Assembly: GCA_009746045.1 (NCBI GenBank)
Contig: RPFO01000084.1
Span: forward strand, 1,356,176 to 1,420,175
DNA: 64,000 nt
From: Mesostigma viride
Lineage: Eukaryota; Streptophyta; Mesostigmatophyceae; Mesostigmatales; Mesostigmataceae
Direction: 5' to 3'
Position 1 is the first letter of the stretch. The number at the start of each line of letters is the position of its first letter. The translations under genes and the position numbers were made by a program. Positions 24,433 through 58,935 of this stretch are shown piece by piece. The notes beneath the pieces are model-generated. The model was not told the DNA's origin, made no database searches, and saw only the letters and a program-made list of their open reading frames with translations.

Positions 24433-25083
24433 AGTTAGCGAGCAGCCAGAACTGTGAGTTCCTGGTCTCTCACGCACACAACGGGATGAGCCAAAGTTGC
24501 AAGGCAGCAACCTTTTAACCCGTGCACCAAGCCACGACCACGGTGAGCGTTTCCACTTCCAATGTGGGAGCCTCGGTTCGTGCTTGCCAAGATAGCTGGT
24601 CATCCCCCATGACCAAGCTATATCCTTTGGCAGCGTTGTTCCTCGTTCCCATCGGCATGACGAGGCACGTGCAGGCAGGCAAGCAAATCCTCAACGTCCA
24701 CTGGCATCAGTGCAGAACCAGGACGAACTGGATTTGCCTAGACTCTGCAACCTAGGAAGTACAGGACCTGTCACAAGCCTGCAAAGGCCTAGTATCCTTG
24801 CAGACCTGTGCCAGTCCTGTATTCCACCAGCCACAGGCTGCTGCTCCTCTGGTCTACGTGGACCACAGTCACGTGATAGCCAGGCTAAGCCTGTGCAGGC
24901 ACGGCCTGCCACGTGTCCTGTCCACTATACCAGAGGACTGTATCCTAGTCGGCCACGGACGGCTAGGACTTCGGGACCTCATATCTTTCTTGTCCCTTGT
25001 CTGTTTCAGGCGGTCAGCACGGCGTTGGAAAGGTCTTTCCAAACTGCATCCACTTAGCATATTGGTTGCCCAAAATGCTAACT
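24433..25083 (-). repeat. Copia-3 3' LTR
   Basis: 651 bases, repeated at 32220-32866 with only a few differences. The termini AGTTAGC/GCTAACT form a 7-base inverted repeat instead of TG/CA. No gene lies inside. Confidence 0.92.
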
Positions 25084-26092: not shown

Positions 26093-29000
26093 CTATGGCC
26101 GCCCGTGTAAGGGGTCCATGAGCCCACGGAGCAGGGGGTACTGCCTCTCCGCCTTCTCCTCCAGCTTGGTGAGGGCATCTGCAGGGTTGTCCACACCAGG
26201 CACATGTTCAATGTGAGCTAGGTAGGACATCTCCTTGAGCAACAAGTAGTCAAGGTCCCTGCTCCTGGCCAGCTGCCTGTGCACAAATTGCACCATGCCC
26301 ATGCTATCAGTCCTCACCAGTGTGTGCAGCTGCAACCTACAGGAAGCCACTTGACATAGCTGGTAGAAGAGCTCCCTCAAGTAAAGAGCAGTATGCAGCC
26401 CTTCACAGATTGCCCTGCACTCAGCAATATCACTGCTGGGTGTAACCCTGTTCTGCAACCGACTGTACCAGGTAACAAGTGAGGTGTGATCTTGCTCCAG
26501 GGTAACTAATGCTGCTGCCCTGCCCCTGACCTCTGTGACCTTCCTATTATCCATAGAACTGTCCACATAGAGAACCATGTCAAGGGGCTTGTACAAATCC
26601 ACAGGACCCAGTATGAGAGGGGGAGACATCATGACAGCCTGCACCACACTCTCAGCACCCACCTCAACCAGCTGGGAATCAGTAAGTCGACTCAGAACCA
26701 GCAAGTCAGGGGCACATATACTTGCAAGCCATGCCAGCATGCCCCTGATGGTAGCACACCTAGCCTGCGTGATGGGCTCCTGCAATGCATCTACAATCTG
26801 CTGTGGGTAGTCCTTACCACCCTCCATCCTGATGAACCACGAGCCCTTGGCTTGGAACAACGTAGCCTGCATGCCACAGAAGACCATAGGCTCATTCTCC
26901 ACCATGTGCTGTATCTTACCCAGCTCAAACCGCTTCTGGATCTTAGCCAAGACAGCCTCAACCCAGTCTGGTGGACCTATGAGATGCAGGTCATCACCAT
27001 GCAGTGAGGCAAAGACAGGAAGGCCATTGTGGGACCCTTGGAACAAACAGGGATCCACTGGAGACACAGAAAACCCACAAGTATTCTTCAAGAATTTCTC
27101 TAGGCTCTTTCTCCAGATAATGGGACTGGACCTGAGACCTTCCAACCCTTTCAGAATTCTCAGGTACCTGGCCTTTATCTCTGCTCTCCATACAGCAGGT
27201 ACAGTCACAAAGAAAGGAGGGATATCTCTCCAAGTCTGCCTAGCCTGATCTTGGTCACCCTTGAGAAAAGCCCTCTTGAAATCAATCAGCACAGAGCTAT
27301 AGGGCACACCCTTAACCAGAAAAGACAGAAATATACACAGCAGAATCCTCCACGTGTCATGCAGCATCCCTGGAGTATAGAGCTCCTCATCTAACAACTG
27401 GCCAGTGCCATGATACTCGGTTACAACTGGTCTGACATGTGGCACCTGGACACCATCAACCTCCTTGAGCTTGAGGACAAACATCAATCTGAGCAGCTGG
27501 TGAACTTCTGGCAGCTCATCCACAGGTTCTGCACAGTTGGAAACTATCCACTCATGCCCAGAAGCAACAAAGCCAAGAGTCCATGCCTTAGCCATCTTGG
27601 GGCTTGCATCATCTCGACTAGCTGGCGCCAGGGAATAGGACTGTGAGCAGCTATCTGGTACCTGTTTACCCCTAACTGCCTTGGATCAAAGGTGGTTGGG
27701 ATTATCAACAAGTCCTCAGCTATGGGCTCCTGACTTGAGGACCCTCAGCTGGCTGACTCCTAACAGCCTTCACCGCCACTGCAAGACCCTGGGAATAGTG
27801 ATATCTTTCAAGGGGGAGGCTGCCCCTGCCTTCTAGTGCCAACTCATCAGAGGTCAAAGTAACCCCTGGCATGCACAAGAAGTTCTGTCCCAGAATGGCA
27901 GGCCCCTTATAGCCCTCTACCACACAGAACGTGGTGGGCACCCCTAAGATAGGCACACTCACTTCCCCAAGGATCTTCATGGACACCTTTCCTGAGAAAT
28001 CAGACACAGCAAGGCAACTGGGATGGGACATCTGTAAGCCTACAGCATCCTCTTCCCTGATGACAGACACCTGTGAGTTGGTATCTACCTCCATTGTAGC
28101 TGCCCAGCACGACCCCCACCCCGTGAGCTTGGATACCTTGGGATCATGTTTGCTGCGCATGAGTGCTCGGATGACGTCCGCCATGAGAGGCCCCCGGGCC
28201 TTAGGTGGCTGCCCCGTCCCCTCTGGCCTTGTGACAGTTGCTTCAGCAGCCTCCTGCTCGTCATCTTCCAGCAGGGACAGACCATCATCCACCACCAGAG
28301 GATTGTTAGCTGCTGCTGCCTGGCTCTGGCCTGGCTCCTCAACCCAGCTGGGAGGGCCTGGCCCGTCTGCAGGCCAGATTGCATGTGGCCTTCTTTCCTT
28401 GACATGAGCCCAGGACAACCTGTACACGTGCCTTGGATCCTTTTCCAAAGCCACCAGGCAAGATCTGTTAGCTTCTTCCACACGAGTGACAACCCCATCC
28501 TGCCACTTCCCCCGCTTGCCTGGAATAGATGGTTCCTTCCACATCCTGACCTTCAGCCCCACCTGAGGCCTCAGCACATTCCAGTTCTTGTCCTTACGTC
28601 TCAGCTGGGCAAATAACCTATCTGCCTTCCTAAGACTGGCCTGCACCACGTTCTCAGGCAACAAGCTATACTGCAGGGCCAGGGGAGAGACAGCCACACC
28701 ATCAAAGTAATAGTTAACCCTGTGGTTCAGCTGCTCTTCTATCCCCTTACACCAGGCTGCCCTCTCTAAGGCAGATGCCACAAGTGGCACTGACTCTGCT
28801 GCTAGCACCACTGTCTTCACTTCACGTATGGATCTCTCTACAGCCCCTTGCTGCCCATGACTCTCCCTGGGGACTACTACCAGCTTACAAGGCAGCTGGT
28901 CCTGATGCTTGAGCAAACAGTCAAACTGCAAGTCTGCCTGCACACTCTTGCACACCCCAAAGCCTGGGATCAGGGCCTTCATACCCAACAACAAGTGGTG

Positions 29001-29620
29001 CTCCTGCATACCAGGCAGAACGTCTATCAGCCTGTATCTGCTGAACCTGTCCACCCCACCAATATATACAAGCCCCTGATATGCTGGATATCCATCTGGA
29101 TGTCGCCACGCTCCCTAGCAGGCTCCCTAGCATGGGACTGAGGTGGGTGAACAGCATTCTCCTGGCAACCACAGTTCTCAGCAGCAGCCTGGCATGCCTC
29201 CCACAAAGGCTCCCTACCTAGCTTCCAAGCAAACATTGCTGCCTGCCCAGAATGCCCAAACATGTGATGCAACTATGGCCAGCCTCAGCATAGCTCAGCA
29301 CTCTGTCAGTACTGACCTGGCGAGACGTCTGAACCGTGTGTGGGGACACATGATCCACTCCTGAGGTTCCAGGGCTTCCCTGCAGGCCATCCTGACGCCC
29401 CAAGCCAGGTCCTGCACCCTGGACCGCTCCAGGCCCTTCCAGCAAGGTCCTTGGCCCTCCAGGCCAGCACCTGCTGGAGACCCACCACCTGCATGAGGCA
29501 TAGGGAATTCAGCTGCAGCATTGTTATTGCAATCCAGTGGAAGAACAACATCTTTACACCCTTGGTGCTGCACAAGGGGCACACCCCCATCCTTATGTAC
29601 ATCCAGCACACCTTCCCCAA
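26093..29620 (-). pseudogene. Copia-3 pol: integrase, protease-like, reverse transcriptase, RNase H
   Basis: Integrase comes first: zinc motif HHMFGH...C.C near 29250, then MDIQHIRG (Asp), a second Asp in VQADLQFD and HGQQGAVERSIREVK (Glu). After a spacer comes a retropepsin-like block: MEVDTNSQVSVI near 28085 and GPAILGQNFL near 27900. Reverse transcriptase follows (TPGMLHDTWRILL; LIDFKRAFL; GLEGLRSSPIIWRKSL; SLHGDDLHLIG near 26995), then RNase H (DSSMD, AECRAICEGLHTALYLRELF, RTDSMGMVQFV, DNPADALTK), ending at 26093. Frameshifts near 29050 and a break near 27700-27600 inactivate it. Canonical Copia order is protease, integrase, RT, RNase H, so the protease position is unusual. Confidence 0.85.
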
Positions 29621-29657: not shown

Positions 29658-30529
29658 TCACTGCTGCCCAGACTGGCCCCCTGCCCCAGCAGGCTTGGCC
29701 TTCCTGTCAGGACACTCACGACGCCAGTGACCTTCCTTGCCACACACAAAGCATGCTCCACCCTTCTTCCCAGACCCAGCCCCACCCTTGCCAGGCTTCC
29801 CTGGCCTCCCTGAGACTGTCCACCCTGCTTGCCCTGGTTGCCTTGAGCTTGGCCCTTGCCTTGCCCTTGGCCACCCTTACCCTGCTGACCACCAGCTTGC
29901 TGGCTCCCAACCCCTCCTTGGGAACCTGCACCCTTGCCACCCTGAGCCCCCTGCCTCTGGCGCCTGAAGCGCTTACGCTTGTTGGGCCTTGCCCCATCAC
30001 GGGCTGGGTACCCGGGGACATCACCTTGGCCCTGCACAGCGGAGGTGGCATTGCTGCCATGGGACTGGATAGCTTTGCAGGCAGGATCTGGCTTCCTTAT
30101 GCTGAGGATTACAAGCTCCAGAGCACGCAAGGAGCCATCAGTCTGGTTAAGAAACATGCGGGCACTGTTCCTCCCATCCACACTCAAACCCATACGGTCC
30201 AGGAAATAGTCTGCCAAGGCCCTATCTGTGACCAGGAAGCCATACTTGGCCCCCTTGTCCCTGATACGGTTGAGCCTAGCCCATTCCTCTGCCACAGGGC
30301 CCACTATCTCAAAGGTGTCATACTGATGTTTATAGTAGTTGGTGAGGTTGAGAACCTTGTCAGAGAACTCCTCCCTCAACCCATCCAGGAACTGTGCCCA
30401 GGTTAGCTTATCCTTGACAGCAGTCCTAGCCTTTCCCTGACACGCTCTGACGAGTCCCTGTTGCACGTGGACGAGTGAAACACTTGCACTAGGTTGACAG
30501 TGGGGTCCACGGAGACACAACAGCTCCAT
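29658..30529 (-). pseudogene. Copia-3 gag
   Basis: Capsid-like helical region (KLTWAQFLDGLREEF..., YYKHQYDTFEIVG, EWARLNRIRDKGAKYGFL), a Gly/Gln-rich linker of about 70 residues and a CX2CX4HX4C knuckle (CFVCGKEGHWRREC) near 29755-29712, with a stop at 29658. The knuckle is in the -1 frame relative to the upstream gag frame. The start at 30529 is uncertain because SLDKWLEDM upstream is also open. Gag forms the particle and binds element RNA (family knowledge). Confidence 0.75.
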
Positions 30530-32219: not shown

Positions 32220-32866
32220 AGTTAGCGAGCAGCCAGAACTGTGAGTTCCTGGTCTCTCACGCACACAACGGGATGAGCCAAAGTTGCAAGGCAGCAACCT
32301 TTTAACCCGTGCACCAAGCCACGACCACGGTGAGCGGTTCCACGTCCAATGTGGGAGCCTCGGTTCGTGCTTGCCAAGATAGCTGGTCATCCCCCATGAC
32401 CAAGCTATATCCTTTGCGTTGTTCCTCGTTCCCATCGGCGTGACGAGGCACGTGCAGGCAGGCAAGCAAATCCTCAACGTCCACTGGCATCAGTGCAGAA
32501 CCAGGACGAACTGGATTTGCCTAGACTCTGCAACCTAGGAAGTACAGGACCTGTCACAAGCCTGCAAAGGCCTAGTATCCTTGCAGACCTGTGCCAGTCC
32601 TGTATTCCACCAGCCACAGGCTGCTGCTCCTCTGGTCTACGTGGACCACAGTCACGTGATAGCCAGGCTAAGCCTGTGCAGGCACGGCCTGCCACGTGTC
32701 CTGTCCACTATACCAGAGGACTGTACCCTAGTCGGCCACGGACGGCTAGGACTTCGGGACCTCATATCTTTCTTGTCCCTTGTCTGTTTCAGGCGGTCAG
32801 CACGGCGTTGGAAAGGTCTTTCCAAACTGCATCCACTTAGCATATTGGTTGCCCAAAATGCTAACT
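32220..32866 (-). repeat. Copia-3 5' LTR
   Basis: 647-base partner of 24433-25083. The bases just inside it, on the minus strand, read CGTACTATTGC. This is not the TGG start of a primer site for a tRNA 3' end. Copia-1 and Copia-2 also start CGTA here. Confidence 0.92.
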
Positions 32867-32871
32867 TGAGT

Positions 32872-34287
32872 CCTCATAGTCGTGCTGGGTAAAACGCCAT
32901 CATACTCGGTACTGTCGCTGTCTGCTTCTCCCGCGCTGGATGTCCCGGTGGTCCACAATCTCGGCCACCTCGTCTTCCTGTTCGCCGGTCTCAGGGTTGT
33001 ATTCGACGGGGGCCGGCGGATTGAGGCGACCTTGGATGGAGTTCTGGTGATACAACTTGAGTTGATCGCGATGGAAGTTGGGTGAAGTGTTCCAGGAGCT
33101 TGGGATGTCGACCTTGAACATCACATCGCCCAGCTTCTCCAAGACCTTGTGAGGCCCCAGGAACATAGGACGGAGCTTGGTCTTGAGCTCACCTCCTACC
33201 TTCTCGGAGAAACGTCCTATAGTCAGGGGCCTTCCACCAGAACCCAGTCGCCTGCCTCAATCGACGGGGTGCGCGCGTCCAGGCGACTAGCGGTCCTCGC
33301 CATATAGCGCGCGGCTGCGGCTCGGTAGCCCCTGACCGCGCTGTCATGGGCCTGACGCATCTGAACCAACAGCTTCTCCACCCCTTCCAGGGTGTCCCGC
33401 CGGACTGTTTTCTCTGCCAAAGCGGGGCTCGTGAGAAGGTCGGTCGGCGTAAGCGGGTGCCTGCCAGTGTTGAGGAAGAACGGCGTGAAGCCATGGGCCG
33501 CCTGGGGGGCGTTGTTCAAGGAGAATTCCACCAAGCCCAGAAACTCCTCCCAATTGCCTCCCACCGCGTCAGTGTAGTGCCGCATGGTCTCTTGCACTGT
33601 GCGGTTCAGTCGCCGCTCCACCAGGTGAGAGGACGAGCTGTGGTACGCTGTCCCCAATGACACCTTGGTGCCCAGTCGTTCAAAGAACTCCTGCCAGAAG
33701 CGAGCCGTGAACAACTTGTCACGGTCCGATATGAATTGCCGGCTGAGTCCGTGGTACCGAAACACGTGGTGGAGATACAACTTAGCGCAAGCCTCAGCCG
33801 TGAGCTCGGCCGGGCATGGGGCCGAGTGACACATGCGCGTCAGGCGGTCCAAGAAAACCAAGATCATGCTGTTGCCGTGCTTGGTCTTCCGGAAGGGGCC
33901 AATAAAATCCATCATCAATGAGTCCCAAGGCGCCATGGGGTCAGGCAGCGTCTTGGGGATCGCTTGTGACCCCGTGTTGCGAGACTTCATGATCTGGCAT
34001 GATGGACACTCGCGCACGTACGTCTCGATGTACTCCCGCATACCTGGCCAGTAGAAGTTCTTTCTGGCCCGCGGCAGCAGGCGATGGATTCCTTGGTGGC
34101 CACCGGTGAGGGAGTCGTGGAGCTCATGGAGCAGAGCCGCTCTACATATCTCCGGGACGTACAGGCGCCAGCAGTCAGGTCTCACCATGACATGGAGTCG
34201 TCCGTCCTGGAACTTGCACGGGAGCTTGCCCATCTGCTGAGGGTGCGACCTGATCGCCTCCAGGGCTGCTGCTTCCGTGACGGTGAA
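32872..34287 (-). pseudogene. Chromovirus integrase and start of chromodomain
   Basis: Zinc-binding H2C2 (HDSLTGGHQGIH ... CPSC), catalytic core with MMDFIGPF, ISDRDKLF and a Glu in SSSHLVERRLNRTVQE, then a C-terminal domain. A frameshift at about 33225 is followed by VGGELKTKLRPMFLGPHKVL, FHRDQLKLYHQ and the chromodomain strand DEVAEIVDHRD...QRQYRV. Integrase inserts the cDNA. It continues in frame from RNase H except for a stop at 34288-34290. Confidence 0.85.
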
Positions 34288-36437
34288 TCAGCTGATCAGC
34301 GTCTCCAGAACGGAGGTGACGGTGTACGCATCCGCCTCCTCTTCAGTCTCGAGGGTTTGGTATACGTACTCCGAGAAAATGGTGGGGGACCCAATGGGCT
34401 GCAAGTGAAAAATTCCCTGAGCCGGGACCACGTGGCTGAGTGGCAAGCGCGAATGGGACCCCTCCCCTTCCCCGGGGGCGCGCACGTCCTCGTGCGAACC
34501 CCAGTTGGGGGATAGGTCGTCCATGGTGGTACGACCCGTGTGAAACAAATAACGAGCCTGCGGCGACCGCGGAAGGTCACCATAGGACGTGCCGGGCGCC
34601 TGAGCTGGGACGCAAGTGGTATGTAGTACTCCCAGATCTTCATAGAACCAGTGGTCCGCCCGCCGGGAAAGGGCGTCTGGGACCACGTTCTCTGCACCCT
34701 TGACGTACTGAATCTTAAAGGGGGCGAACTGGGACAAGTACTCCAGCCAGCGTGCTTGACGGGGCACCAGGTTGGGTTGGGCGAGCAGATGCGTGAGGGG
34801 CCGATGATCCGTGTGGATGATCAGCCGGTGGGGATCAAGATCCCCCTGCTCGCTGATGGCAACGTCAAACTGGGCCCCGAGAAGATGATGGCGCCAGGTA
34901 TGGCAGCAGTAGACCACGGCAAGAAGCTCCTGCTGGTGTACCGGATAGTTGCGCTCGGCAGGGATCATAGTCCGGGAGATGTACTCGACCGGCTGCAACC
35001 CCTGACCCTGGTCCTGCAATAGGACACCGCCGATTGCAACCTTGCTCGCGTCCGTTGCGACCACAAAGGGCTTGGACGGGTCCGAGAGAACGAGCACGGG
35101 GGCCGTGGTCAGGCTGCGCTTGAGGGCCTCAAAGGCCTGTTGGCACGGTTCCGACCAAACGAAAGGAACACCCTTCTTGAGGAGGGCGTTAATGGGGGCA
35201 GCGATCGTCGCGAAACGGGGGATGAAACGTCGGTAATACGACGCGACACCCAAAAAGCTGCGCACGCCCTTGACGTTGGTCGGGGTCGGCCACTGCTGGA
35301 TGGAGGCGATCTTGGAGGGGTCCGTCGCAATGCCGGCAGCGGACAGGGTATGACCGAGGAACGGTACGCTGCGACCAGCGCGGACCTTGGCCTTGCGGAC
35401 CGAAAGATTCTCCTCCTCCATGATGCGCAATACCGTGGCGACGTCCTCGAGATGATCCTCAAAGGTCTTGGAGTACACCAAGATGTCGTCCAGGTATGCG
35501 AGCGCACAAGTGCGCTTGTAGGACCACGGGGGCTTCGCGCCCCGGTTGGGGTCCTCGAGGTCACGGGAAACCTGCGGGAGATGCGCGGTTCCCATGACTG
35601 GGCGGAGGATGTCATTCATGAGCATCTGAAAGCTCGCAGGGGAATTGCACAACCCCATGGCGGCCACACGGAACTGATAGTGGCCGAACGGCGTGTTGAA
35701 CGCCGTTTTATGACAGTCCTCCGGCGCAATCCTTAACTGCCAGAACCCGTCTGCGCAATCAAGGACGGTGAAACATGTGGCGCCCTGCACGCGGTTGAAG
35801 ATATCGTCGATGCGGGGGAGAGGGTACTTTGACTTTACCGTAATAGCGTTCAGCTTACGATAGTCCGTGACGAGCCGCCACTTGCCCCCAGGCTTGGGGA
35901 CCAACAGCACGCCTGCTGAGAAGGGGCTGTTGCTGGGCTCGATGAGACCCCGCTCCAGAAGCGCCATCAAGATCTTCTTGAGCTCTGCACCAGCTCCACC
36001 GGACCCATGCGGTACATAGGGGACGTCGTAGGGCCATAGCCCTCCTGCAATTGGATGCGGTGGAGCACCGAGCGCGGCGGGGGAAACTCTTGCTTACTCT
36101 CATCAAAGAGCTTCGCGCGTGCTGCCAACACCGCATTGTAGCGCTCGGTCTCCTCGGGGGTGAAGCCCACACCGATCTCATTGAGCATGAGCTCCACGGC
36201 AGCGAGGTCGAGGCGATACATGTAGTATTCCTTGCCCTGACGCAACTTGCCCTCCAAGGACTTGATGCTCATGAGGATCTGTGAGGCTTGGCGGGGTTGG
36301 GTAAATTCCCGCTCATGCGTGACGTTGTGCACAGTGGGACCCTGCGCCTGATATTCGCCAACCGGACTCCAAAAGGAGCCGTCGGGGAACCACACCACGC
36401 GACGCTTAATGCTGATGTCAACATCCTGAGCGTCCAT
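34288..36437 (-). pseudogene. Chromovirus reverse transcriptase and RNase H
   Basis: From the protease tail (MDAQDVDISIKRRVVWF) through the polymerase (SPFSAGVLLVPKPGGKWRLV; YPLPRIDDIFNRV; YLDDILVYS) to RNase H (VVATDASKVAIGGVLL; HQQELLAVV; HTDHRPLTHLL; NVVPDALSRR). There is a frame change near 35970 and a stop at 34288. The order before integrase is canonical Ty3/Gypsy. Confidence 0.9.
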
Positions 36438-36441
36438 CCAG

Positions 36442-36687
36442 TCAATGCCAATAATGATCGATATCGGCTGCGCCCAGCGGCGCGACAGTGGCGGTAAGCT
36501 CCACAGGGATGCCCTGAATCACCGCCTTGATGTCGACTAGACCTGGCGAGGGGTTCTTGCGACCATCTGAGTAAGTCACATTTACCACTGTCGCGTGTGG
36601 CCGTATAGTGTAGCCAGCGCGACGCGCCAGTGCCTCATTGATGAATGACGTGGAAGCGCCCGTGTCGACCATGAACTGCACGTCCAT
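36442..36687 (-). pseudogene. Chromovirus aspartic protease
   Basis: Retropepsin with active site FMVDTGASTSFIN at about 36675-36637 and the flap/closing region up to IIIGIDWM across a one-base frame change near 36470. It cleaves the Gag-Pol precursor (family knowledge). It gives a canonical DTG for comparison with the DTN of the Copia elements here. Confidence 0.85.
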
Positions 36688-37009
36688 GACAGTCTTCCCT
36701 TGAGGAAGGGGTCCAGTGCTGTTGATGGCACTGCCAGACCCCCTCGAAAGAGGAGCAAGCTGCGGGCCGCACTCCTCGGGGCTGCATGCGTCAGCGGGGC
36801 GTCCGCGTTGCTGCCCGAAGCCAGAATTGTAGCCGTGGCTGGAGCCTCACCAACTGGCTCCATACTCGCGCCGGTATCCGCAACTAACGGTGCCTGTACG
36901 GCGGAGCTACTGCTATCTACACTATTTACTCCTACTACGCTATCTACCCTATCTACCTGAGCTACCGCTACTTCTACCCCCAAGGGGAGGGACACTACGC
37001 GCGAGGAAC

Positions 37010-42411: not shown

Positions 42412-43028
42412 AGTTAACGTAAAGGATTTACGTTAGATGGATAGAGATTGTTACGCTCTTTCCAGCGGCACCTTGAACGCCTCATTTGGTTAAGGAACGT
42501 AAAAGTTATGACGTTTCCTAGGCTGTGCCGACAGTACCCGGCGCGCCACTGTGGGCGCGTACGGACACAGGATGTACAAGTGTCACTTTGATAGTCCGCA
42601 GGACGTTGACAGGACTTGTACAGGACTTGATGGTCAATTGATAGGTAGGCGTGCTGTAGCGCGCCAGGACCTATGAGACAATTGATGCTGAGTAGTGTAC
42701 GGATAGGTCCACAGGACTAGCCGTATGGACAATTGATAGATCTCCGCGCCAAAGGCGTGCCAGAGCTCTGTGTAATCAATTGATTGACAGTTCAGCTGTG
42801 ACAGTGCAGCTGAATACTTGGACGCGTCCCTAACAACCTATATGTGTGACTTGGTCGCACCGGGACGCTAGTTCTTGCGTGCACGTTCTCTTGGCACTGC
42901 GACCCTGTCGTCTGTGCTGCGTGCAGTCTTGGAAGTGACGTGACTTACGTCTGTGTTTCCTGTTATTAATAAAGGCAACTTCCTGCAAGAACCATGGCGG
43001 AATTCGTGGCATTCACTCTCATACAACT
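42412..43028 (+). repeat. Copia-1 5' LTR
   Basis: 617 bases. It carries TTACGTTAGATGGATAG at the start, several TGGACAATTGATAG-like words and an AATAAA at about 42969. The next bases, CGTATTACACGC, are the candidate primer-binding region, and it is not a TGG type. Confidence 0.92.
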
Positions 43029-43052
43029 CGTATTACACGCTTCGTTCCAAAT

Positions 43053-43763
43053 ATGCCAAATTCTGAAGAATTCCGGATTCCCGACGATGAGGAATTAGCC
43101 GCTCCGCCGGCTGATCCTTTGCCAAGAGCGGCTGCGCCGTCGTGGCAGCAATTGCTTGACGAGGTCACGACATCGCTGGACGAACTTCATCGTCAGCAGC
43201 GCGCAGCTCACGCATTGCTCGGGGATAACCCCGAGGACCCCGATTTGCCAGCACTGGTGCCGGCTATACGCGCACTGTTGGACCAGATCCGCAACATTTT
43301 ATCGACTTTTACGGTCCAGGTGCGGGGAGGATTGCGGTCGGTGAACGAGGTCACGACTGCCATTGAGGAGGTGGACAACGCCATCTCTTCACTCACCGGT
43401 TACCAGAGAAACTTACAAAACTGGGCATCGCTACGCACGGGGGGCGCGCCGGCGGTGTCGACAAACTTGTTTCAAGATCTTGCGTTGCTATCGCTGCTCA
43501 CACGCGGCGTACGCAGTCGCGAGCGCCAGGTTCTAATTAACCTGGTGGCATTTCTCGCATCTGTGCGAGAGTGGATTCCCGCGGGGTGGGAATTGTTGAC
43601 GATCTTTACACATCCTCTGCGCCTCGTAGCGCGTCGGCGCATCGCAACTTACGCGGCGGGGAGCACACCGGTTTTAATACATACCGGTGCAGGTCCAGAG
43701 CTGGATATGGAGGATCGTGAGTTCGCATACACGTACTGCGACTTCAGGGGCCTTGACTATTAA
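43053..43763 (+). CDS. Copia-1 leader ORF (ORF0), unknown function
   Basis: A complete 236-codon frame starting 25 bases after the 5' LTR and ending 160 bases before gag. It has an acidic N terminus (MPNSEEFRIPDDEELAAPP) and helical central segments (LLDEVTTSLDELHRQQRAA; VNEVTTAIEEVDNAISSL), suggesting a coiled coil. A hydrophobic stretch (LINLVAFLASVREWIPAGWE) follows, and the end is YCDFRGLDY. The Copia-2 counterpart has the same start, length class and end, but many substitutions, although the two gag-pol regions are nearly identical. No family is recognised. A Gag-like or chaperone role is only a guess. Confidence 0.7.
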   Translation: MPNSEEFRIPDDEELAAPPADPLPRAAAPSWQQLLDEVTTSLDELHRQQRAAHALLGDNPEDPDLPALVPAIRALLDQIRNILSTFTVQVRGGLRSVNEVTTAIEEVDNAISSLTGYQRNLQNWASLRTGGAPAVSTNLFQDLALLSLLTRGVRSRERQVLINLVAFLASVREWIPAGWELLTIFTHPLRLVARRRIATYAAGSTPVLIHTGAGPELDMEDREFAYTYCDFRGLDY

Positions 43764-43924: not shown

Positions 43925-45040
43925 ATGGCAGACGGGCGCCGTAGCAAAGGTGCCCCAGCCAGTGGGAATAATGGTGGTGCTGGTAGTGGGACCGCTCACG
44001 TAGATGACGTGGGGGTTACCGGAGAGATTACCAACCTTCATCACAATAATAATAATGCACAAGCTGTTCTTGGTTATGATCTCACTACCCAGGGTTTGCT
44101 TATTGTGAATCAACTGCAACCTGTCACGTCAGACACAAAGCCCAAGCAGGCTGAGGAGTTTGTGGAGGGGCTAGAGGGGTTTCCAAGTTTGTACGGTGGT
44201 ACAAACTATTACCAGATCTGGATAGGTAGCCAGACTTTTGGCAAGTGTACAGATCAGATAAAGGACCTCACTAGAGAGTGTAAGAAGGCCAACAAGGCCT
44301 GGTCCAGCTACGTGGCAGAGTTAAAGGAGCTGCTGGAGGATCAGAGGAAGAAAGTGGGGATCCATTGGCAGGATAAATACCAGGGGTGGGAGGTCAAGGG
44401 GGACCTGATCCAGAACTTCCTTAACTATTGTAAAATGGTTGAGGAGGGCAGGGCTCACGGCTTTAATGTTGCTGATAACATAGCCCTGACCAACTGGCTC
44501 AAGGTTTCTGGGCTGGATAAGGCGACACGTGGCTCCTTAAAGGTCATGTGTGCCCCACACTCAACCCTCAAGGCCTACAAGGTCATAATCAAACAAGCAC
44601 TCGAGGCAGAGGAGCTGTTTGAGGGTGGAGTGCCAGCAGTGAAGGCTACCCAGGCAGGTGGGCGTACCCAGGGGGCTCCAAGACGTCTGAGGCTGACAGA
44701 AGCCAAGGAGGGCGAGGGGCAACCATAACAAGCGCAAGGGCGATCATTCACCTGACTCTGACAGGAGGTCACACTCCAAGTCGGTGTTCAGGCGGGTGGG
44801 TGGTCAGCCCAAGCAGGGCAACGCGTCTGACAACGGGGGAGTGGCCAGGGCAAGTCAAAGATACAATGCTACCTGTGCAAGGGGTGGGGGCACATCAAGA
44901 AGGAGTGTCCCAGCTTCAAGAAGTCCCAGGGCCAGGGCAGCAACAAGAATAACAACAACAACAACAAGAAGAACAACAACAAGTCCCAGGCAGGCCAGCC
45001 TTCAAAGGGCAGTCAGCAAGAAGACAACAAGGAGCAGTGA
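43925..45040 (+). pseudogene. Copia-1 gag
   Basis: Starts MADGRRSKG. A capsid-like helical region follows (FPSLYGGTNYYQIWIGS; HWQDKYQGWEVKGDLI; NIALTNWLKVSGLDK), then a Lys/Gly-rich linker and a CX2CX4HX4C knuckle (CYLCKGWGHIKKEC) near 44870-44911, an Asn/Lys run and a stop at 45038-45040. A one-base loss near 44712 relative to Copia-2 breaks the frame, and the knuckle is again in the -1 frame relative to the linker. It is more than 95 percent like Copia-2 by eye. Confidence 0.78.
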
Positions 45041-45228
45041 CTGTCTGAGGCAACCCCTACACACCTTAATTCACCCAAGGGGGAGGCCAGGTGCTCCAAT
45101 GCAGATTTTATATCTGGGCAACAAGAGGGTGATCTCCAGGTTCAGGGTGGCCCCAGGTCACCTGGAGAGGTACAGGTTCCTATGAAGACGTCCTTGACAG
45201 CTGATGCAGCTGTAAGAATGTCTGACCC

Positions 45229-48200
45229 ATGCATCCTCGTGCTGGGCACGAGGGTGGACCTCTCATTTTGAGAGAAACCAATGTACAACCACAGAGGGGT
45301 GTGAAGGCCTCTGGTGGTATGCATGTGGTCCCTGCTGGCGGTCCAGGTGTTGGGCATGAGCAGGGTGACTCAGGCTCTGAGTCAGAACAGGATGGAAGTC
45401 AGCATGGTGATGCTGGACAACCTGACAGCACAGTCCTGACTGTGCCAGGGACTGCTTCCTCTGTGTACCAGGAGTTGGGTGCCCGAATCCACAACATGTT
45501 TGGGCATGCCACTTCTCTGTCAAACAACTTTGCCTTCCGTATGGGCAGGGCACCCCTTCTTAAGGCGTGTCAGCAAGCTGCCTCACGGTGTAAGTGCCAG
45601 TTGTCCTCCAACAAGCCCAGGAAATCACATGCCAAAGCTCTACCTCAGAGCATTGGTGATCTGCAGTGTGATATCCAACACATCAGGGGCATGCAACTGT
45701 TGGTGTGCGTGGACAGGTACACGAAATACAAGGTGCTAGAGCATTTACCTTCTATGAAGAACAGGTACTTGCTGGCTGCCCTGCAGAATGTAAGAGCCAA
45801 GTTTCCTACCACAAGGATCCAGGTGGACATGCAGTTTCAGCATCTCAAGGGTGATCCTACCCTTCCTGAGTTGCTGGTTACACCTAGGGAGGCTCATGGG
45901 CAGCAGGGTGCTATCGAGAGGGCAATCCAGGAGGTCAAGAAATTGATCATCTCTGAAGACTGGGTACCCTTGTCTGCACCTGCACTTGTCAGGAGTGCAT
46001 GGCTGAGGAACGTGGAGCAGCAGCTGAACAGCAGGGTTAACTTCTACTATGATGGAGTTGCTGTCAGCCCAATGGGTCTATATCATGGCCTGTGCCCACC
46101 ACATGTGCTGGAGGGCTGGAAACATGCTGCACATGTCACCTTTGCCAAGCTGAGGGAGAAGGACCGGGGTTGGAAGATGCTGGAGCCACAAGTGGGTCAG
46201 AAGGTCCTAGCTTGGAAGGAACCTAGCCTTTATGGCAAACGTGGTAGCTGGAGTCCTGGGGTGGTTACCCAGGTTGATGAAGCTAGCCACGCATGCTTGG
46301 TCAGCATGGAGGACGAACCAAAGCATGTGCACCGGCTGAGTTGGTCATATGTCAAGCCTAACCTGATGAATGAGGGCAGTCAGGCACAAGGCTCACAGGA
46401 TCTGCAGGATTTTCAGGTCCCAGGTGACATCACTGACGCAACGACCACATCTGTTGCAGGGGAATCTGTCAGCCCTGGCCAGGTTGCAGAGGTACTTGTT
46501 GAACAGGCTGCAAGGTCAACAGCTGGGGAGTCAACTGTCAAGCCCAAGGCACTAACCAAGCCCAGGGGGACAAGTTTGGCTGGATTGATTGGGGCTCTAC
46601 AAAGAGCCAAGAAGCAGCCCAAGGTAGCCAAGCTCAGGTGGCATGGCAATCTGGGGCTGGACACTGCCTTAGAGGTAGACACTAATTCTCAGGTCTCCAT
46701 CATTGGGACCAGGGCTGCAGCAGGGTACAGCATGTCTGAACCCAGCTATCAGTTTGTGTCTGACTTCAGTGGCGGGGTACACGTGAAGGTACTGGGTGAG
46801 GTATTCATTCCTATCCTTGGACAGGACACTGCTTTTTGTGTCTTGGAGGGCTATCAAGGACCTGCTCTTCTGGGGCAGAATTTCCTATGCCAGGATGGGG
46901 TAGTGATCACGTCCTCTCTCCTGACTAAGGAAGGGGCTGGTCAGGTCCCACTGATTAATTTCAGGACCACTCACCTATCACGTGCAGTAACCAGGACGGT
47001 TAAGCGTGTGCAAGTGTGCCAGGGGCAGGAGCCCTTGGTTGATGACCTCATACTGCCAGCTGCTAGTCATCCAAGCAGTTTGGGCATTGGTCCTCACTCA
47101 CTTGCTGGACACAGCCCTATCAACTACCAAGGCCTGGTGAAGCTCATGTCCTCTCCCATTATGTGTCCCCAGGTCACACTGGGTCTGATTAAATCTGGGG
47201 AGGACTGGATCTCCAAGAAATGCGTGGAACCTGTCAATGACCTGCCTCCTGCACGACGTCTACTCAAGCTCAAGTTTGTCATCAAGATGAAGGAGGTGGA
47301 CGGGGTCAAGGTACCACATGTCAGGCCAGTGCTGAATGAGTTCAAGGGTACTGGTGAGTGCACTGCTGAGGAGTTGTATACCCCTGGCATGTTGCATGAT
47401 ACTTGGAGGCTGCTGCTGTGTGTATTTCTAGGCCTTCTCAACAAGGGCTTGGACTATGGCTCAGTGGTGGTAGACTTCAAGAGGGCATTTCTGGAGGGGA
47501 TGCAGATGTGGCACAGGAAAAGTGGGAGGGCAAGACGCCTTTCTATGTTAGGGTGCCTGCTGTATGGAAAAGGGACATCCACACGGAGTTCCTTAAAATC
47601 CTCAAGGGCCTGGAGGGCCTGAGGTCAAGTCCAATAATCTGGAGGGAGACTCTCAACCGTTTCCTGAAGGAGCATTGCAACTTGAAGGTCTCTCCTGTAG
47701 ACCCCTGTCTGTTTCTGGGGCAATGGGAAGGCCTGCCAGTGTATGCTTCGCTGCACGGGGATGACCTACATCTGATAGCTCCCACGTCGTGGCTTAAGGA
47801 GCTGATCTCCATCATTAAGTCCAAGTTTCCTCTGGGTAGGGAGCAATGGCAGGTGGAGAATGAGCCTCTGCTGTTTGTGGGCATGGAGGCCACACTGGTG
47901 AAGAAGGGGGGGAGTGGCGTATGCTGCTGGTGGGGGGCAATGATTATCAAGAGACCCTCATTAGCAAGCTTCCTCCAACCATCACACAGGCACTGTGTCC
48001 CATGGTGAGGGGCATGGTTGCTTGGGTGGCAGGCATTTCCAGGCCAGACCTTATGGTCATAGCCAGGTTGCCTGATGACATGCTGGTGGAGCTAGGGTCT
48101 GCCAAGGTGGCTGATCAGGTCAGGGCTTCATCTGGCATTCTGTTGTCTGCAGTGGATTTATCACAACCCATTTGCATGGAGCTGTATGTGGATAGCTCAA

Positions 48201-48664
48201 TGGACAGCAGGCAGGTCTCCAAGGTCAGGGGCAGGGCTGCAGGGCTCTTTGTGCTCAGACAGGAAGGCCTGGGGAGTTTGGTGAGCTGGTTTAGTCGCCT
48301 GCACAAACGGGTGGCTGTCAGCAGTGATGTGGCAGAATGCAGGGCTATTTGTGAAGGCATTCACACAAGCCTTTATCTGAAGGAGTTGCTTCATCAGATG
48401 ACTTCTAACACTCCTTGGCCACTTCAGGTTACCACTCTTCTAAAAACAGACTCCATGGGGATGGTGCAGTTTGTGCACAGGCAGATGGCCAGAAGTAGGG
48501 ACTTGGATTATCTCCTTCTTAAGGAGTTGTCCTCCTTGGCCAATATTGAGCATATCCCTGGGGTTGACAATCCTGCTGATGCTTTGACCAAGCTAGTGCA
48601 GAAGGCAGCAGTGCAATACAAGGTTCTTCAGTCTCTGATGGACCCATCTCAGCAAGCTGTCTAA
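45229..48664 (+). pseudogene. Copia-1 pol: integrase, protease-like, reverse transcriptase, RNase H
   Basis: One frame runs from 45229 to about 47500 with integrase, then protease-like, then RT. Integrase: ARIHNMFGHAT...CKC, Asp at 45670, Asp at 45826, Glu at 45916 (HGQQGAIERAIQEVK). Protease-like: LEVDTNSQVSIIG, DTN at 46678-46686, and GPALLGQNFL near 46865. RT: TPGMLHDTWRLLL, VVDFKRAFLEG near 47470, GLEGLRSSPIIWRETL and ASLHGDDLHLI (HGDD at 47754-47765). RNase H: DSSMDSRQ, AECRAICEG and NPADALTK, stop at 48664. Frame changes occur near 47500 and 47930, and one base is lost at about 45228. No protease motif exists between the gag knuckle and integrase, so the order is not produced by a nested insertion. 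Confidence 0.88.
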
Positions 48665-49613: not shown

Positions 49614-50227
49614 AGTTAACGTAAAGGATTTACGTTAGATGGATAGAGATTGTTACGCTCTTTCCAACGGCACCTTGAACGCCTCATTTGGTTAAGGAAC
49701 GTAAAAGTTATGACGTTTCCTAGGCTGTGCCGACAGTACCCGGCGCGCCACTGTGGGCGCGTACGGACACAGGATGTACAAGTGTCACTTTGATAGTCCG
49801 CAGGACGTTGACAGGACTTGTACAGGACTTGATGGTCAATTGATAGGTAGGCGCTGTAGCGCGCCAGGACCTATGAGACAATTGATGCTGACTAGTGTAC
49901 GGATAGGTCCACAGGACTAGCCGTATGGACAATTGATAGATCTGCGCGCCAAAGGCGTGCCAGAGTCTGTGTAATCAATTGATTGACAGTTCAGCTGTGA
50001 CAGTGCAGCTGAATACTTGGACGCGTCCCTAACAACCTATATGTGTGACTTGGTCGCACCGGGACGCTAGTTCTTGCGTGCACGTTCTCTTGGCACTGCG
50101 ACCCTGTCGTCTGTGCTGCGTGCAGTCTTGGAAGTGACGTGACTTACGTCTGTGTTTCCTGTTATTAATAAAGGCAACTTCCTGCAAGAACCATGGCGGA
50201 ATTCGTGGCATTCACTCTCATACAACT
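49614..50227 (+). repeat. Copia-1 3' LTR
   Basis: 614-base partner of 42412-43028 with a handful of differences, implying fairly recent insertion. The right flank CCCGC completes the target duplication. Confidence 0.92.
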
Positions 50228-50660
50228 CCCGCGAGATCCGCATCGACTTCTGCAAGATCCGCTCTGCTGGGCTCAGCGTCCGTACCATCCTACTCTCATC
50301 ATTCAAAATTGCTCCCCAAGAGGGGGGTAGTAAGTTCAGCACATCCACTTGGCCACCTTCCCCCGGACCAGGCAAGGCCAAGCGTGCGGCCACTAACGGT
50401 TCGTAAGGGGCTCCTTCAGCATATTCACCCCCATCCACTACAGATCCTGCCATTGCCGCTACGGAACCACCGTTCCGGCGGACAAAGGACCTGCAAGCAT
50501 CATCGATCCCATCTAGGGCCGCCTGCTGCAGAGGCCCGGGCACACGGGCTGAATCTACAGCAGGCGGGTCTCGCCCCCCCCCCCATCCAGTTTAACGCCC
50601 TAACCGTCTGACAGGCTAGTGTGCGAGCATTAAAAGCCCGACTCATCCTATCGCGCCTAC
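50228..50660 (-). pseudogene. RTX retroelement: segment between its gag-like and RT parts
   Basis: Minus-strand frame PGPLQQAALDGIDDACRSFV ... SPAERILQKSMRISR leads directly, after removing Copia-1 and one CCCGC, into GCSMEEFARVC and the RT at 42411. It is bounded on the right by Copia-2 at 50661, with the duplication CCTAC at 50656-50660. The junctions prove these are pieces of one older element. Confidence 0.6.
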
Positions 50661-54202: not shown

Positions 54203-57200
54203 TTAGACAGCTTGCTGAGATGGGTCCATCAGATACTGAAGAACCTTGTACTGCACTGCTGCCTTCTGCACTAGCTTGGTCAAAGCATCAGCAGGATTGT
54301 CAACCCCAGGGATATGCTCAATATTGGCCAAGGAGGACAATTCCTTAAGAAGGAGATAATCCAAGTCCCTACTTCTGGCCATCTGCCTGTGCACAAACTG
54401 CACCATCCCCATGGAGTCTGTTTTTAGAAGAGTGGTAACCTGAAGTGGCCAAGGAGTGTTAGAAGTCATCTGATGAAGCAACTCCTTCAGATAAAGGCTT
54501 GTGTGAATGCCTTCACAAATAGCCCTGCATTCTGCCACATCACTGCTGACAGCCACCCGTTTGTGCAGGCGACTAAACCAGCTCACCAAACTCCCCAGGC
54601 CTTCCTGTCTGAGCACAAAGAGCCCTGCAGCCCTGCCCCTGACCTTGGAGACCTGCCTGCTGTCCATTGAGCTATCCACATACAGCTCCATGCAAATGGG
54701 TTGTGATAAATCCACTGCAGACAACAGAATGCCAGATGAAGCCCTGACCTGATCAGCCACCTTGGCAGACCCTAGCTCCATCAGCATGTCATCAGGCAAC
54801 CTGGCTATGACCATAAGGTCTGGCCTGGAAATGCCTGCCACCCAAGCAACCATGCCCCTCACCATGGGACACAGTGCCTGTGTGATGACTGGAGGAAGCT
54901 TGCTAATGAGGGTCTCTTGATAATCATTGCCCCCCACCAGCAGCATACGCCACTCCCCCCTTCTTCACCAGTGTGGCCTCCATGCCCACAAACAGCAGAG
55001 GCTCATTCTCCACCTGCCATTGCTCCCTACCCAGAGGAAACTTGGACTTAATGATGGAGATCAGCTCCTTAAGCCACGACGTGGGAGCATCAGATGTAGG
55101 TCATCCCCGTGCAGCGAAGCATACACTGGTAGGCCTTCCCATTGCCCCAGAAACAGACAGGGGTCTACAGGAGAAACCTTCAAGTTGCAATGCTCCTTCA
55201 GGAAACGGTTGAGAGTCTCCCTCCAGATTATTGGACTTGACCTCAGGCCCTCCAGGCCCTTGAGGATTTTAAGGAACTCAGTGTGAATGTCCCTTTTCCA
55301 TACAGCAGGCACCCTGACATAGAAAGGCGTCTTGCCCTCCCACTTTTCCTGTGCCACATCTGCATCCCCCTCCAGAAATGCCCTCTTGAAGTCTACCACC
55401 ACTGAGCCATAGTCCAAGCCCTTGTTGAGAAGGCCTAGAAATACACACAGCAGCAGCCTCCAAGTGTCATGCAGCATGCCAGGGGTATACAACTCCTCAG
55501 CAGTGCACTCACCAGTACCCTTGAACTCATTCAGCACTGGCCTGACATGTGTGGTACCTTGACCCCGTCCACCTCCTTCATCTTGATGACAAACTTGAGC
55601 TTGAGTAGACGTCGTGCAGGAGGCAGGTCATTGACAGGTTCCACGCATTTCTTGGAGATCCAGTCCTCCCCAGATTTAATCAGACCCAGTGTGACCTGGG
55701 GACACATAATGGGAGAGGACATGAGCTTCACCAGGCCTTGGTAGTTGATAGGGCTGTGTCCAGCAAGTGAGTGAGGACCAATGCCCAAACTGCTTGGATG
55801 ACTAGCAGCTGGCAATATGAGGTCATCAACCAAGGGCTCCTGCCCCTGGCACACTTGCACACGCTTAACCGTCCTGGTTACTGCACGTGATAGGTGAGTG
55901 GTCCTGAAATTAATCAGTGGGACCTGACCAGCCCCTTCCTTAGTCAGGAGAGAGGACGTGATCACTACCCCATCCTGGCATAGGAAATTCTGCCCCAGAA
56001 GAGCAGGTCCCTGATAGCCCTCCAAGACACAAAAAGCAGTGTCCTGTCCAAGGATAGGAATAGATACCTCACCCAGTACCTTCACGTGTACCCCGCCACT
56101 GAAGTCAGACACAAACTGATAGCTGGGTTCAGTCATGCTGTACCCTGCTGCAGCTCTGGTCCCAATGATGGAAACCTGAGAATTAGTGTCTACCTCTAAG
56201 GCAGTGTCCAGCCCCAGATTGCCATGCCACCTGAGCTTGGCTACCTTGGGCTGCTTCTTGGCCCTTTGCAGAGCCCCAATCAATCCAGCCAAACTTGTCC
56301 CCCTGGGCTTGGTTAGAGCCTTGGGCTTGACAGTTGACTCCCCAGCTGTTGACCTTGCAGCCTGTTCAACAAGTACCTCTGCAACCTGGCCAGGGCTGAC
56401 AGATTCCCCTGCAACAGATGTGGTCGTTGCGTCAGTGATGTCACTTGGGACCTGAAAATCCTGCAGATCCTGTGAGCCTTGTGCCTGACTGCCCTCATTC
56501 ATCAGGTTAGGCTTGACATATGACCAACTCAGCCGGTGTACATGCTTTGGTTCGTCCTCCATGCTGACCAAGCATGCGTGGCTAGCTTCATCAACCTGGG
56601 TAACCACCCCAGGACTCCAGCTACCACGTTTGCCATAAAGGCTAGGTTCCTTCCAAGCTAGGACCTTCTGACCCACTTGTGGCTCCAGCATCTTCCAACC
56701 CCGGTCCTTCTCCCTCAGCTTGGCAAAGGTGACATGTGCAGCATGTTTCCAGCCCTCCAGCACATGTGGTGGGCACAGGCCATGATATAGACCCATTGGG
56801 CTGACAGCAACTCCATCATAGTAGAAGTTAACCCTGCTGTTCAGCTGCTGCTCCACGTTCCTCAGCCATGCACTCCTGACAAGTGCAGGTGCAGACAAGG
56901 GTACCCAGTCTTCAGAGATGATCAATTTCTTGACCTCCTGGATTGCCCTCTCTATAGCACCCTGCTGCCCATGAGCCTCCCTAGGTGTAACCAGCAACTC
57001 AGGAAGGGTGGGATCACCCTTGAGATGCTGAAACTGCATGTCCACCTGGATCCTTGTGGTAGGAAACTTGGCTCTTACATTCTGCAGGGCAGCCAGCAAG
57101 TACCTGTTCTTCATAGAAGGTAAATGCTCTAGCACCTTGTACTTTGTGTACCTGTCCACGCACACCAACAGTTGCATGCCCCTGATGTGTTGGATATCAC

Positions 57201-57687
57201 ACTGCAGATCACCAATGCTCTGAGGTAGAGCTTTGGCATGTGATTTCCTGGGCTTGTTGGAGGACAACTGGCACTTACACCGTGAGGCAGCTTGCTGACA
57301 CGCCTTGAGAAGGGGTGCCCTGCCCATACGGAAGGCAAAGTTGTTTGACAGAGAAGTGGCATGCCCAAACATGTTGTGGATTCGGGCACCCAACTCCTGG
57401 TACACAGAGGAAGCAGTCCCTGGCACAGTCAGGACTGTGCTGTCAGGTTGTCCAGCATCACCATGCTGACTTCCATCCTGTTCTGACTCAGAGCCTGAGT
57501 CACCCTGCTCATGCCCAACACCTGGACCGCCAGCAGGGACCACATGCATACCACCAGAGGCCTTCACACCCCTCTGTGGTTGTACATTGGTTTCTCTCAA
57601 AATGAGAGGTCCACCCTCGTGCCCAGCACGAGGATGCATGGGGTCAGACATTCTTACAGCTGCACCAGCTGTCAAGGACGTCTTCAT
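54203..57687 (-). pseudogene. Copia-2 pol: integrase, protease-like, reverse transcriptase, RNase H
   Basis: Near-identical to Copia-1 pol, same domain order: integrase (HNMFGH; CDIQHIRG; HGQQGAIERAI), DTNSQVSIIG near 56190, GPALLGQNFL near 56005, RT, RNase H, stop at 54203. An intact start region (MKTSLTAGAAVRMSDP) is present where Copia-1 has lost a base. Frameshifts near 55535 and 55085-54950 break it, the first at a different position from those in Copia-1. HGDD is at about 55100-55111. Confidence 0.88.
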
Positions 57688-57827
57688 AGGAACCTGTACC
57701 TCTCCAGGTGACCTGGGGCCACCTGAACCTGGAGATCACCCTCTTGTTGCCCAGATATAAAATCTGCATTGGAGCACCTGGCCTCCCCCTTGGGTGAATT
57801 AAGGTGTGTAGGGGTTGCCTCAGACAG

Positions 57828-58935
57828 TCACTGCTCCTTGTTGTCTTCTTGCTGACTGCCCTTTGAAGGCTGGCCTGCCTGGGACTTGTTCTTGTTGTTT
57901 TTGTTGTTGTTATTCTTGTTGCTGCCCTGGCCCTGGGTCTTCTTGAAGCTGGGACACTCCTTCTTGATGTGCCCCCACCCCTTGCACAGGTAGCACTGGA
58001 TCTTTGACTTGCCCTGGCACCACCCCCGTTGTCAGACGCGTTACCCTGCTTGGGCTTGCCACCCACCCTCCTGAACACCGACTTGGCATGTGATTGCCCG
58101 TCAGGGTCGGGTGAATGGTTGGCCTTCCGCTTGTTGTGGTTGCCCCCACGCCCTCCTTGGCTTCTGTCAGCCTCAGACGATTTGGAGCCCCCCTGGGCAC
58201 GCCCACCTGCATGGGTTGCCTTCACAGCTGGCACCCCACCCTCAAACAGCTCCTCTGCCTCGAGTGCTTGCTTGATGATGACCTTGTAGGCCTTCATGGT
58301 GGAGTGAGGAGCACACATGACCTTGAGAGATCCACGTGTGGCCTTGTCCAGCCCAGAGACCTTCAACCAGTTGGTCAGGGCTATGTTGTCTGCCACGTTG
58401 AAACCGTGGGCCCTGCCTTCCTCAACCATTTTGCAATAGGAAATTCTGGATGAGGTCTCCCTTGACCTCCCACCCTTGATACTTGTCCTGCCAATGGATC
58501 CCCACTTTCTTCCGTTGATCCTCTAGCAGCGTCCCTCAGCTCTGCCACGTAGACTGCCCAGGCCTTGTTGGCCTTCTTGCACTCTCTATAGTGAGGTCTT
58601 TAATCTGATCTGTGCATTTGCCAAAAGTCTGGCTGCCTATCCAGATCTGATAATAGTTAGTACCCCCGTACAAACTTGGAAACCCCTCTAGTCCTTCCAC
58701 AAACTCCTCTGCCTGCTTTGGCTTAGAGTCTGAAGTGACAGGTTGCAGCTGATTAACTATAAGGAGACCCTGGGTGGTGAGATCATATATATCCAGAGAC
58801 AGCATGTGTATTATTATTGATAGGCACATTGGTAATCTCGCCAGTAACCCCCACGTCATCTACGTGAGCGGTCCCACTACCTGCACCTCCATTATTACCA
58901 CTGGTTGGGCCCTTACTACGTCGCCCATCAGCCAT
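57828..58935 (-). pseudogene. Copia-2 gag
   Basis: ATG at 58935 (MADGRRSKG). Frame breaks near 58790 (a TATATA insertion) and at about 58580 and 58440. The linker is open from 58429, and the CX2CX4HX4C knuckle lies in the -1 frame near 58005-57960, with a stop at 57828-57830. Substitutions against Copia-1 cluster in the linker (for example HSPDPDGQSHAKS against HSPDSDRRSHSKS). Confidence 0.75.

Follow-up and report, generated by a model that had tools for sequence, protein, structure and literature searches.

In a 64,000-nucleotide stretch of the Mesostigma viride genome (assembly GCA_009746045.1, contig RPFO01000084.1, positions 1,356,176–1,420,175 of the forward strand; hereafter the window), three Copia-like long terminal repeat (LTR) retrotransposons, Copia-1, Copia-2 and Copia-3, carry a retropepsin-like block between integrase and reverse transcriptase (RT). 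The order integrase–protease–RT was found in four families that are 43–63% identical, namely Copia-1, Copia-3, family B of the same genome and P0001, a protein encoded on a contig of 6224 bases from the European Nucleotide Archive. The explanation that we favour, with a probability of about 0.78, is a Copia-like lineage of M. viride with a pol of the order integrase–retropepsin–RT–RNase H, placed in frame behind the UGA codon of gag, which would rely on stop-codon readthrough and on an internal protease dimer. According to this model, a minority of ribosomes would read through the gag UGA to produce Gag-Pol, and in the particle two Gag-Pol chains would pair their two internal protease copies. 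The resulting dimer would cut both of its flanks, so that Gag and integrase are released from the N-terminal and RT-RNase H from the C-terminal one.

Domain order in the window elements and their intact relatives

The first pol frame of Copia-1 (45226–47622, + strand) runs uninterrupted from integrase (N-terminal, catalytic core and C-terminal domains, 45466–46359) through the retropepsin-like block (46567–46956, with DTN at 46678–46686 and LGQNFL as the second motif) into the start of RT (47035–47622). The borders of integrase and of the block are carried over from the comparison of Copia-1 with family B. The initial annotation had described a single uninterrupted frame, which holds for integrase, the DTN block and the start of RT, but the frame breaks inside RT; the remaining RT (47403–48008, with the motif LHGDDL; RVT_2 E = 0.0013) and the RT end with RNase H (47864–48664) occupy two further frames. 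Copia-2 (54203–57735, − strand; RNase H 54203–54964, RT 55061–55627, integrase–protease–RT start 55531–57735) has the same order, as had been stated, but as a 99% identical copy of Copia-1 it lends no independent support. The statement that a well-diverged Copia-3 shares the order was borne out: with 46% identity to Copia-1 across the integrase–protease piece it represents an independent family, although frameshifts split its coding region into several frames, one piece covering the integrase core, C-terminal domain and DTN protease (27723–29114, − strand) and another RT and RNase H (26096–27685, − strand; RVT_2 E = 3.5e-5).

Undamaged copies place all domains in one frame. P0001 has the same order in one frame of 1214 amino acids, and a search of the M. 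viride genome with P0001, in which 38 of 10,018 candidates were scored, recovered family B, all 38 scored copies of which carry a pol frame of 1196 amino acids with no stop and are 63–64% identical to P0001. Searching the same genome with the window pol (57 of 8408 candidates scored) gave open frames of 1149–1341 amino acids in seven of the 57, with a query that is itself frameshifted and so favours shifted copies; an open pol of 1208 amino acids with all domains in one frame was present in the three copies read (L010, L011 and L012). Matches ended at residue 797 in 40 of the 57, at 782 in two and at 758, where the window frame departs, in 15.

A set of 42 loci was then compared, consisting of the eight and 30 best-scoring hits of the window pol and P0001 searches, respectively, and four copies picked for long frames; most are near-identical and hence not independent, and one (L003) is the window copy itself. 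In every one of the 42 the DTN block comes after the integrase motif without a change of frame, and in 34 a single frame carries the motifs of integrase, DTN block, RT and RNase H. The other eight (L001–L008) have a common frameshift inside RT (window 47403–48008) and are otherwise nearly identical. In the window pol search, 40 of the 57 scored copies keep to the window frame up to its end. Intact copies may have helped a defective subfamily to spread.

Canonical Copia elements occur in the same genome. A profile search with RVT_2 scored 150 Copia RT copies of 1981 candidates, with E down to 4.7e-50, and three regions (L043, L044 and L045) were scanned; a fourth, L046, related to L044 but truncated, stood outside the scan. 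Pol_BBD, which we take to be the Copia protease, precedes integrase and integrase precedes RT in all three, and the D[ST][AG]A motif of the in-genome Copia elements fits this assignment; L044 alone also gave a gag match. The canonical order in three in-genome Copia families implies that the unusual order does not extend to the assembly or the host at large. LTR elements are given as the largest repeat class (27.9%) of a published M. viride assembly (PMC6947507).

The DTN block and the integrase upstream of it

The identification of the block between integrase and RT as a retropepsin, made initially from sequence, is supported by fold comparison of a predicted model, though no Pfam model reaches its cut-off: retropepsins made up all 50 matches listed in each of two comparisons. 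The best Pfam profile, gag-asp_proteas, gave E = 0.086 for P0001 and E = 0.1 for Copia-3 (residues 340–413, about 27876–28097, − strand). With the Copia-1 block, a sequence search of the PDB gave no match better than E = 0.12, retroviral proteases standing at the head of the list; with the family B block it gave none. As to the source of the protease, the in-genome Copia proteases and the gypsy protease of the window scored no better than shuffled sequences against a profile built from the four DTN blocks, and hhalign put the probability of a match between the DTN blocks and the Copia proteases at 0.1%. Pfam alone was dropped as a test for either protease or integrase, its matches being too weak.

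DTN and LGQNFL do not vary between the families, whose identity to Copia-1 in the integrase–protease piece is 45–52%, and the amino acid identity between Copia-1 and family B is 49% in integrase, 50% in the protease block, 54% in RT and 68% in RNase H, as against 25% in the linker before integrase, 26% in that before the protease and 42% in the 26 residues after it. Protease codons of the two families differ at 0.26 of second and 0.59 of third positions. Because the block is conserved like integrase and RT while its flanking linkers stand at 26% and 42%, chance is an implausible account of it. With retropepsins and the RVP domains of DDI1 the block shares the predicted fold, the aspartate loop and the second motif, here LGQNFL; it differs from them in DTN, where they have DTG, and in its position in pol.

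The presence of a three-domain integrase upstream of the DTN block is likewise supported by a predicted model, built from four aligned rows (mean predicted local distance difference test score, pLDDT, 71). All 50 Foldseek matches listed, with E between 2.4e-10 and 2.6e-8, were to retroviral integrases or intasomes, and most of these spanned the N-terminal, core and C-terminal parts over about 300 columns. The D,D,E core of retroviral-type integrases is present, with the second aspartate and the glutamate conserved in four of four aligned rows and the first aspartate in all three rows that reach the site; Pfam rve, where seen, gave E = 0.022–0.15.

Search for a protease upstream of integrase

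No protease was detected in gag or in the linker, in agreement with the initial annotation, which had found no protease motif between the gag knuckle and integrase. Pfam searches of the gag of Copia-1 and family B returned zinc-finger-type matches and no protease, and a motif scan covering three gags (that of Copia-3 partial), two N-terminal pol linkers and the extra frame described below found no D[ST]G-type site paired with a second motif. Lone sites were a DSG in the low-complexity Copia-1 linker, a DVG in the Copia-1 gag and four LG[DQ] elsewhere. The DTN blocks of Copia-1 and family B also escape Pfam, whose silence upstream is therefore weak evidence; the absence of an upstream protease is likely.

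The extra open frame lies 5' of gag (42939–43763, + strand, the first ATG of the listed open reading frame being at 43053), and Pfam gave it weak, unrelated matches and no convincing family. Its counterpart in L012, a member of the Copia-1 family, lies at 7613–8413 between LTR and gag and encodes about 266 amino acids; the motif scan found no protease motif pair in it.

Gag-pol junction

The gag of Copia-1 (43925–44728, + strand) is truncated in the window copy, its frame measuring 373 amino acids in the relative L012; a CCHC knuckle, CYLCKGWGHIKKEC, lies at 44867–44908 (+), and the UGA stop at 45038–45040 (+) is followed by CUG, with pol continuing in the same frame in intact copies. The corresponding stops are at 57828–57830 (−), followed by CUG, in Copia-2 and at 29658–29660 (−), followed by CUA-G and about 120 further open codons in the same frame, in Copia-3. 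Across the loci, the knuckle-bearing frame ends at UGA in 35 of 42, the next codon being CUG in the Copia-1 family (11 of 12) or CUU in family B (24 of 30); the remaining seven have the knuckle in a different frame, or outside any frame of at least 60 amino acids. The pol frame opens directly after the gag UGA in 30 of 30 family B loci and in seven of the 12 Copia-1-family loci, and elsewhere in the remaining five. Gag thus ends in UGA-CU(G/U/A) in three families (Copia-1, family B and Copia-3), in the context CAG/CAU-UGA-CUN. UGA-CUA is a leaky stop context, and readthrough between gag and pol is likely, judging from the sequence of the junction. A UGA codon also separates gag and pol in Tca2 of Candida albicans, the abstract on which makes no mention of a relocated protease (PMC2194720).

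Placement relative to Ty1/Copia

Like Ty1/Copia (Pseudoviridae), the elements have LTRs, a CCHC knuckle in gag, an integrase that precedes RT and RNase H, and Copia-like RNase H motifs; the RT resembles RVT_2 tentatively, by matches below the curated cut-off that are lacking in family B. They differ from Ty1/Copia in the protease between integrase and RT, the triad DTN, the RT motif LHGDDL and the absence of a Pfam match to SH3_retrovirus, the C-terminal part of the integrase aligning by fold with retroviral integrases. LTR termini of Ty1/Copia are typically TG...CA; in Copia-1, the element in which they were compared, they are AGTT...AACT. The usual definition of Copia is GAG-PROT-INT-RT-RH (PMC6317226), and as the protease lies between integrase and RT in all four families, we call the lineage Copia-like rather than a member of Copia.

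A tree of nine rows, including three in-genome Copia and one gypsy (P0004, described below, was left out as too short), put the four families and P0005, a relative by RT, on one side of the branch leading from the three canonical Copia with support 98/99, a sampling too thin to tell sister from nested placement. Tentatively, and with considerable doubt, the lineage may be a deep sister of Copia which lost the ancestral upstream protease, captured a retropepsin from elsewhere, and has an active DTN triad and UGA-CUN readthrough.

Rearranged pol orders have a precedent: Goodwin and Poulter (2002) reportedly described, going by the title, Ty3/gypsy-like elements with a Copia-like pol order, for which the name Gmr1 is used. 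These would likewise be an LTR lineage with a rearranged order, but there a gypsy-like pol stands in Copia order, whereas here the protease has moved within a Copia-like pol. A Copia element with the protease between integrase and RT was not found in the open-access literature, subscription journals and Repbase being outside the scope; the earlier statement that the arrangement is undescribed survived this search without being proven by it.

The order of pol domains is used to define the superfamilies of LTR elements, and here an unexpected order occurs in four families and many open copies beside canonical Copia. If the interpretation is true, the position of the protease would not be fixed by the replication cycle, and the need for a protease before integrase in ordered processing, catalysis by DTN and the source of retroelement proteases would become testable. 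Classifiers based on domain order may mislabel or drop such elements; a plant survey removed elements with an unexpected pol order as likely mispredictions (PMC6317226).

Alternative explanations

Several results weigh against the interpretation of an internal, active retropepsin reached by readthrough. No Foldseek match of the protease model reached E ≤ 0.001, the template modelling (TM) score to the query was 0.26–0.37 among the matches listed, and confidence in the model is moderate, with a mean pLDDT of 43 that rises to about 65 in the core. The integrase matched domain by domain, with TM scores to the query of 0.30–0.43 and root-mean-square deviations of 12.7–22.4, from which it follows that its domains have other mutual positions than in the matches. 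No stable RNA structure was found 3' of the gag UGA (z 1.10, −0.14 and −0.93), and in yeast the gag-UGA-pol junction sequence of Tca2 alone did not direct readthrough, as summarised in the report on that element (PMC2194720). Finally, the glycine of the D[ST]G catalytic motif of clan AA retropepsins is replaced by asparagine in all four families. Together with a resemblance to retropepsins at the level of the fold alone, this substitution would suit a pseudoprotease, that is, a retropepsin fold without catalysis serving as a structural or dimerisation module, with processing by a host enzyme or none at all. We consider this unlikely: the two motifs are invariant, conservation of the block equals that of integrase and RT, neither Pfam nor the motif scan detected another protease, and two (L043 and L044) of the three canonical in-genome Copia proteases with open frames have DSA at the catalytic motif, so that a missing glycine is by itself no mark of a dead enzyme. 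A canonical Copia protease might instead persist upstream of integrase, too diverged to be recognised, the internal block being an added domain. Pfam scores even the integrase weakly with rve and overlooks the DTN block in two families, but no site pair emerged from the three gags (that of Copia-3 partial), two linkers and extra frame scanned, and the linker before integrase, 25% conserved between two families, does not behave like the enzymatic domains; this account is improbable.

The lineage could also be a separate superfamily with a Copia-like RT. RVT_2 remains below its curated cut-off in Copia-1, Copia-3 and P0001 (E = 0.014) as well as in L012 (E = 4.2e-6), and gives no match for family B; the Copia-1 LTRs lack TG...CA ends, and the branch to canonical Copia is long in the small tree. 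Nevertheless, RVT_2 is the only RT family that matches these pols, P0005 passes the cut-off at 48 bits, integrase precedes RT and RNase H, and the RT and RNase H motifs align, in like order, with those of the in-genome Copia, which makes a separate superfamily quite unlikely. Artefacts confined to single copies, whether from nested insertion, recombination or a chimeric assembly, were rejected as a source of the order, with next to no probability: the window copies are indeed damaged and crowded by other elements, but the order recurs in four diverged families at tens of separate contig positions, with frames open across the junctions.

Further relatives and other features of the window

Protein searches, each scoring just under 8000 candidates, yielded at least five relatives altogether. 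P0003 (414 residues) agrees with the RT of Copia-3 at every one of 365 aligned positions, and P0005 is present at 100% in the M. viride genome. Lineages around P0005 in this genome (e.g. C1:2958211–2959842) fall into groups near 100%, 84% and 77% with frames of about 1300 amino acids; judged by the RT half, from which alone the kinship is read, they are a deeper group. P0004, an RT from the eukprot collection labelled as the dinoflagellate Prorocentrum lima, is clearly close to that of Copia-3; it may stem from horizontal transfer or contamination, or indicate a wider host range. Relatives were neither confirmed in viral_contigs or genome_contigs nor found in the phage collection.

The Copia-1 LTRs lie at 42412–43029 and 49614–50228 (+), differ by three substitutions and two small indels, and end in AACT(C); a possible target repeat of 4–5 bases, CCGC or CCCGC, flanks them. 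The LTRs of Copia-3 span at least 24500–24932 and 32287–32715 (−) and form a near-identical pair. A gypsy element at 33223–36846 (−) keeps the order typical of gypsy, spread over more than one frame, with a VDTGAS protease (36445–36846) followed by RT-RNase H and integrase. In L010, next to a Copia-1 copy, a tandem array at about 359–1028 gives 39 register matches, many of which recur at intervals of 8 bases.
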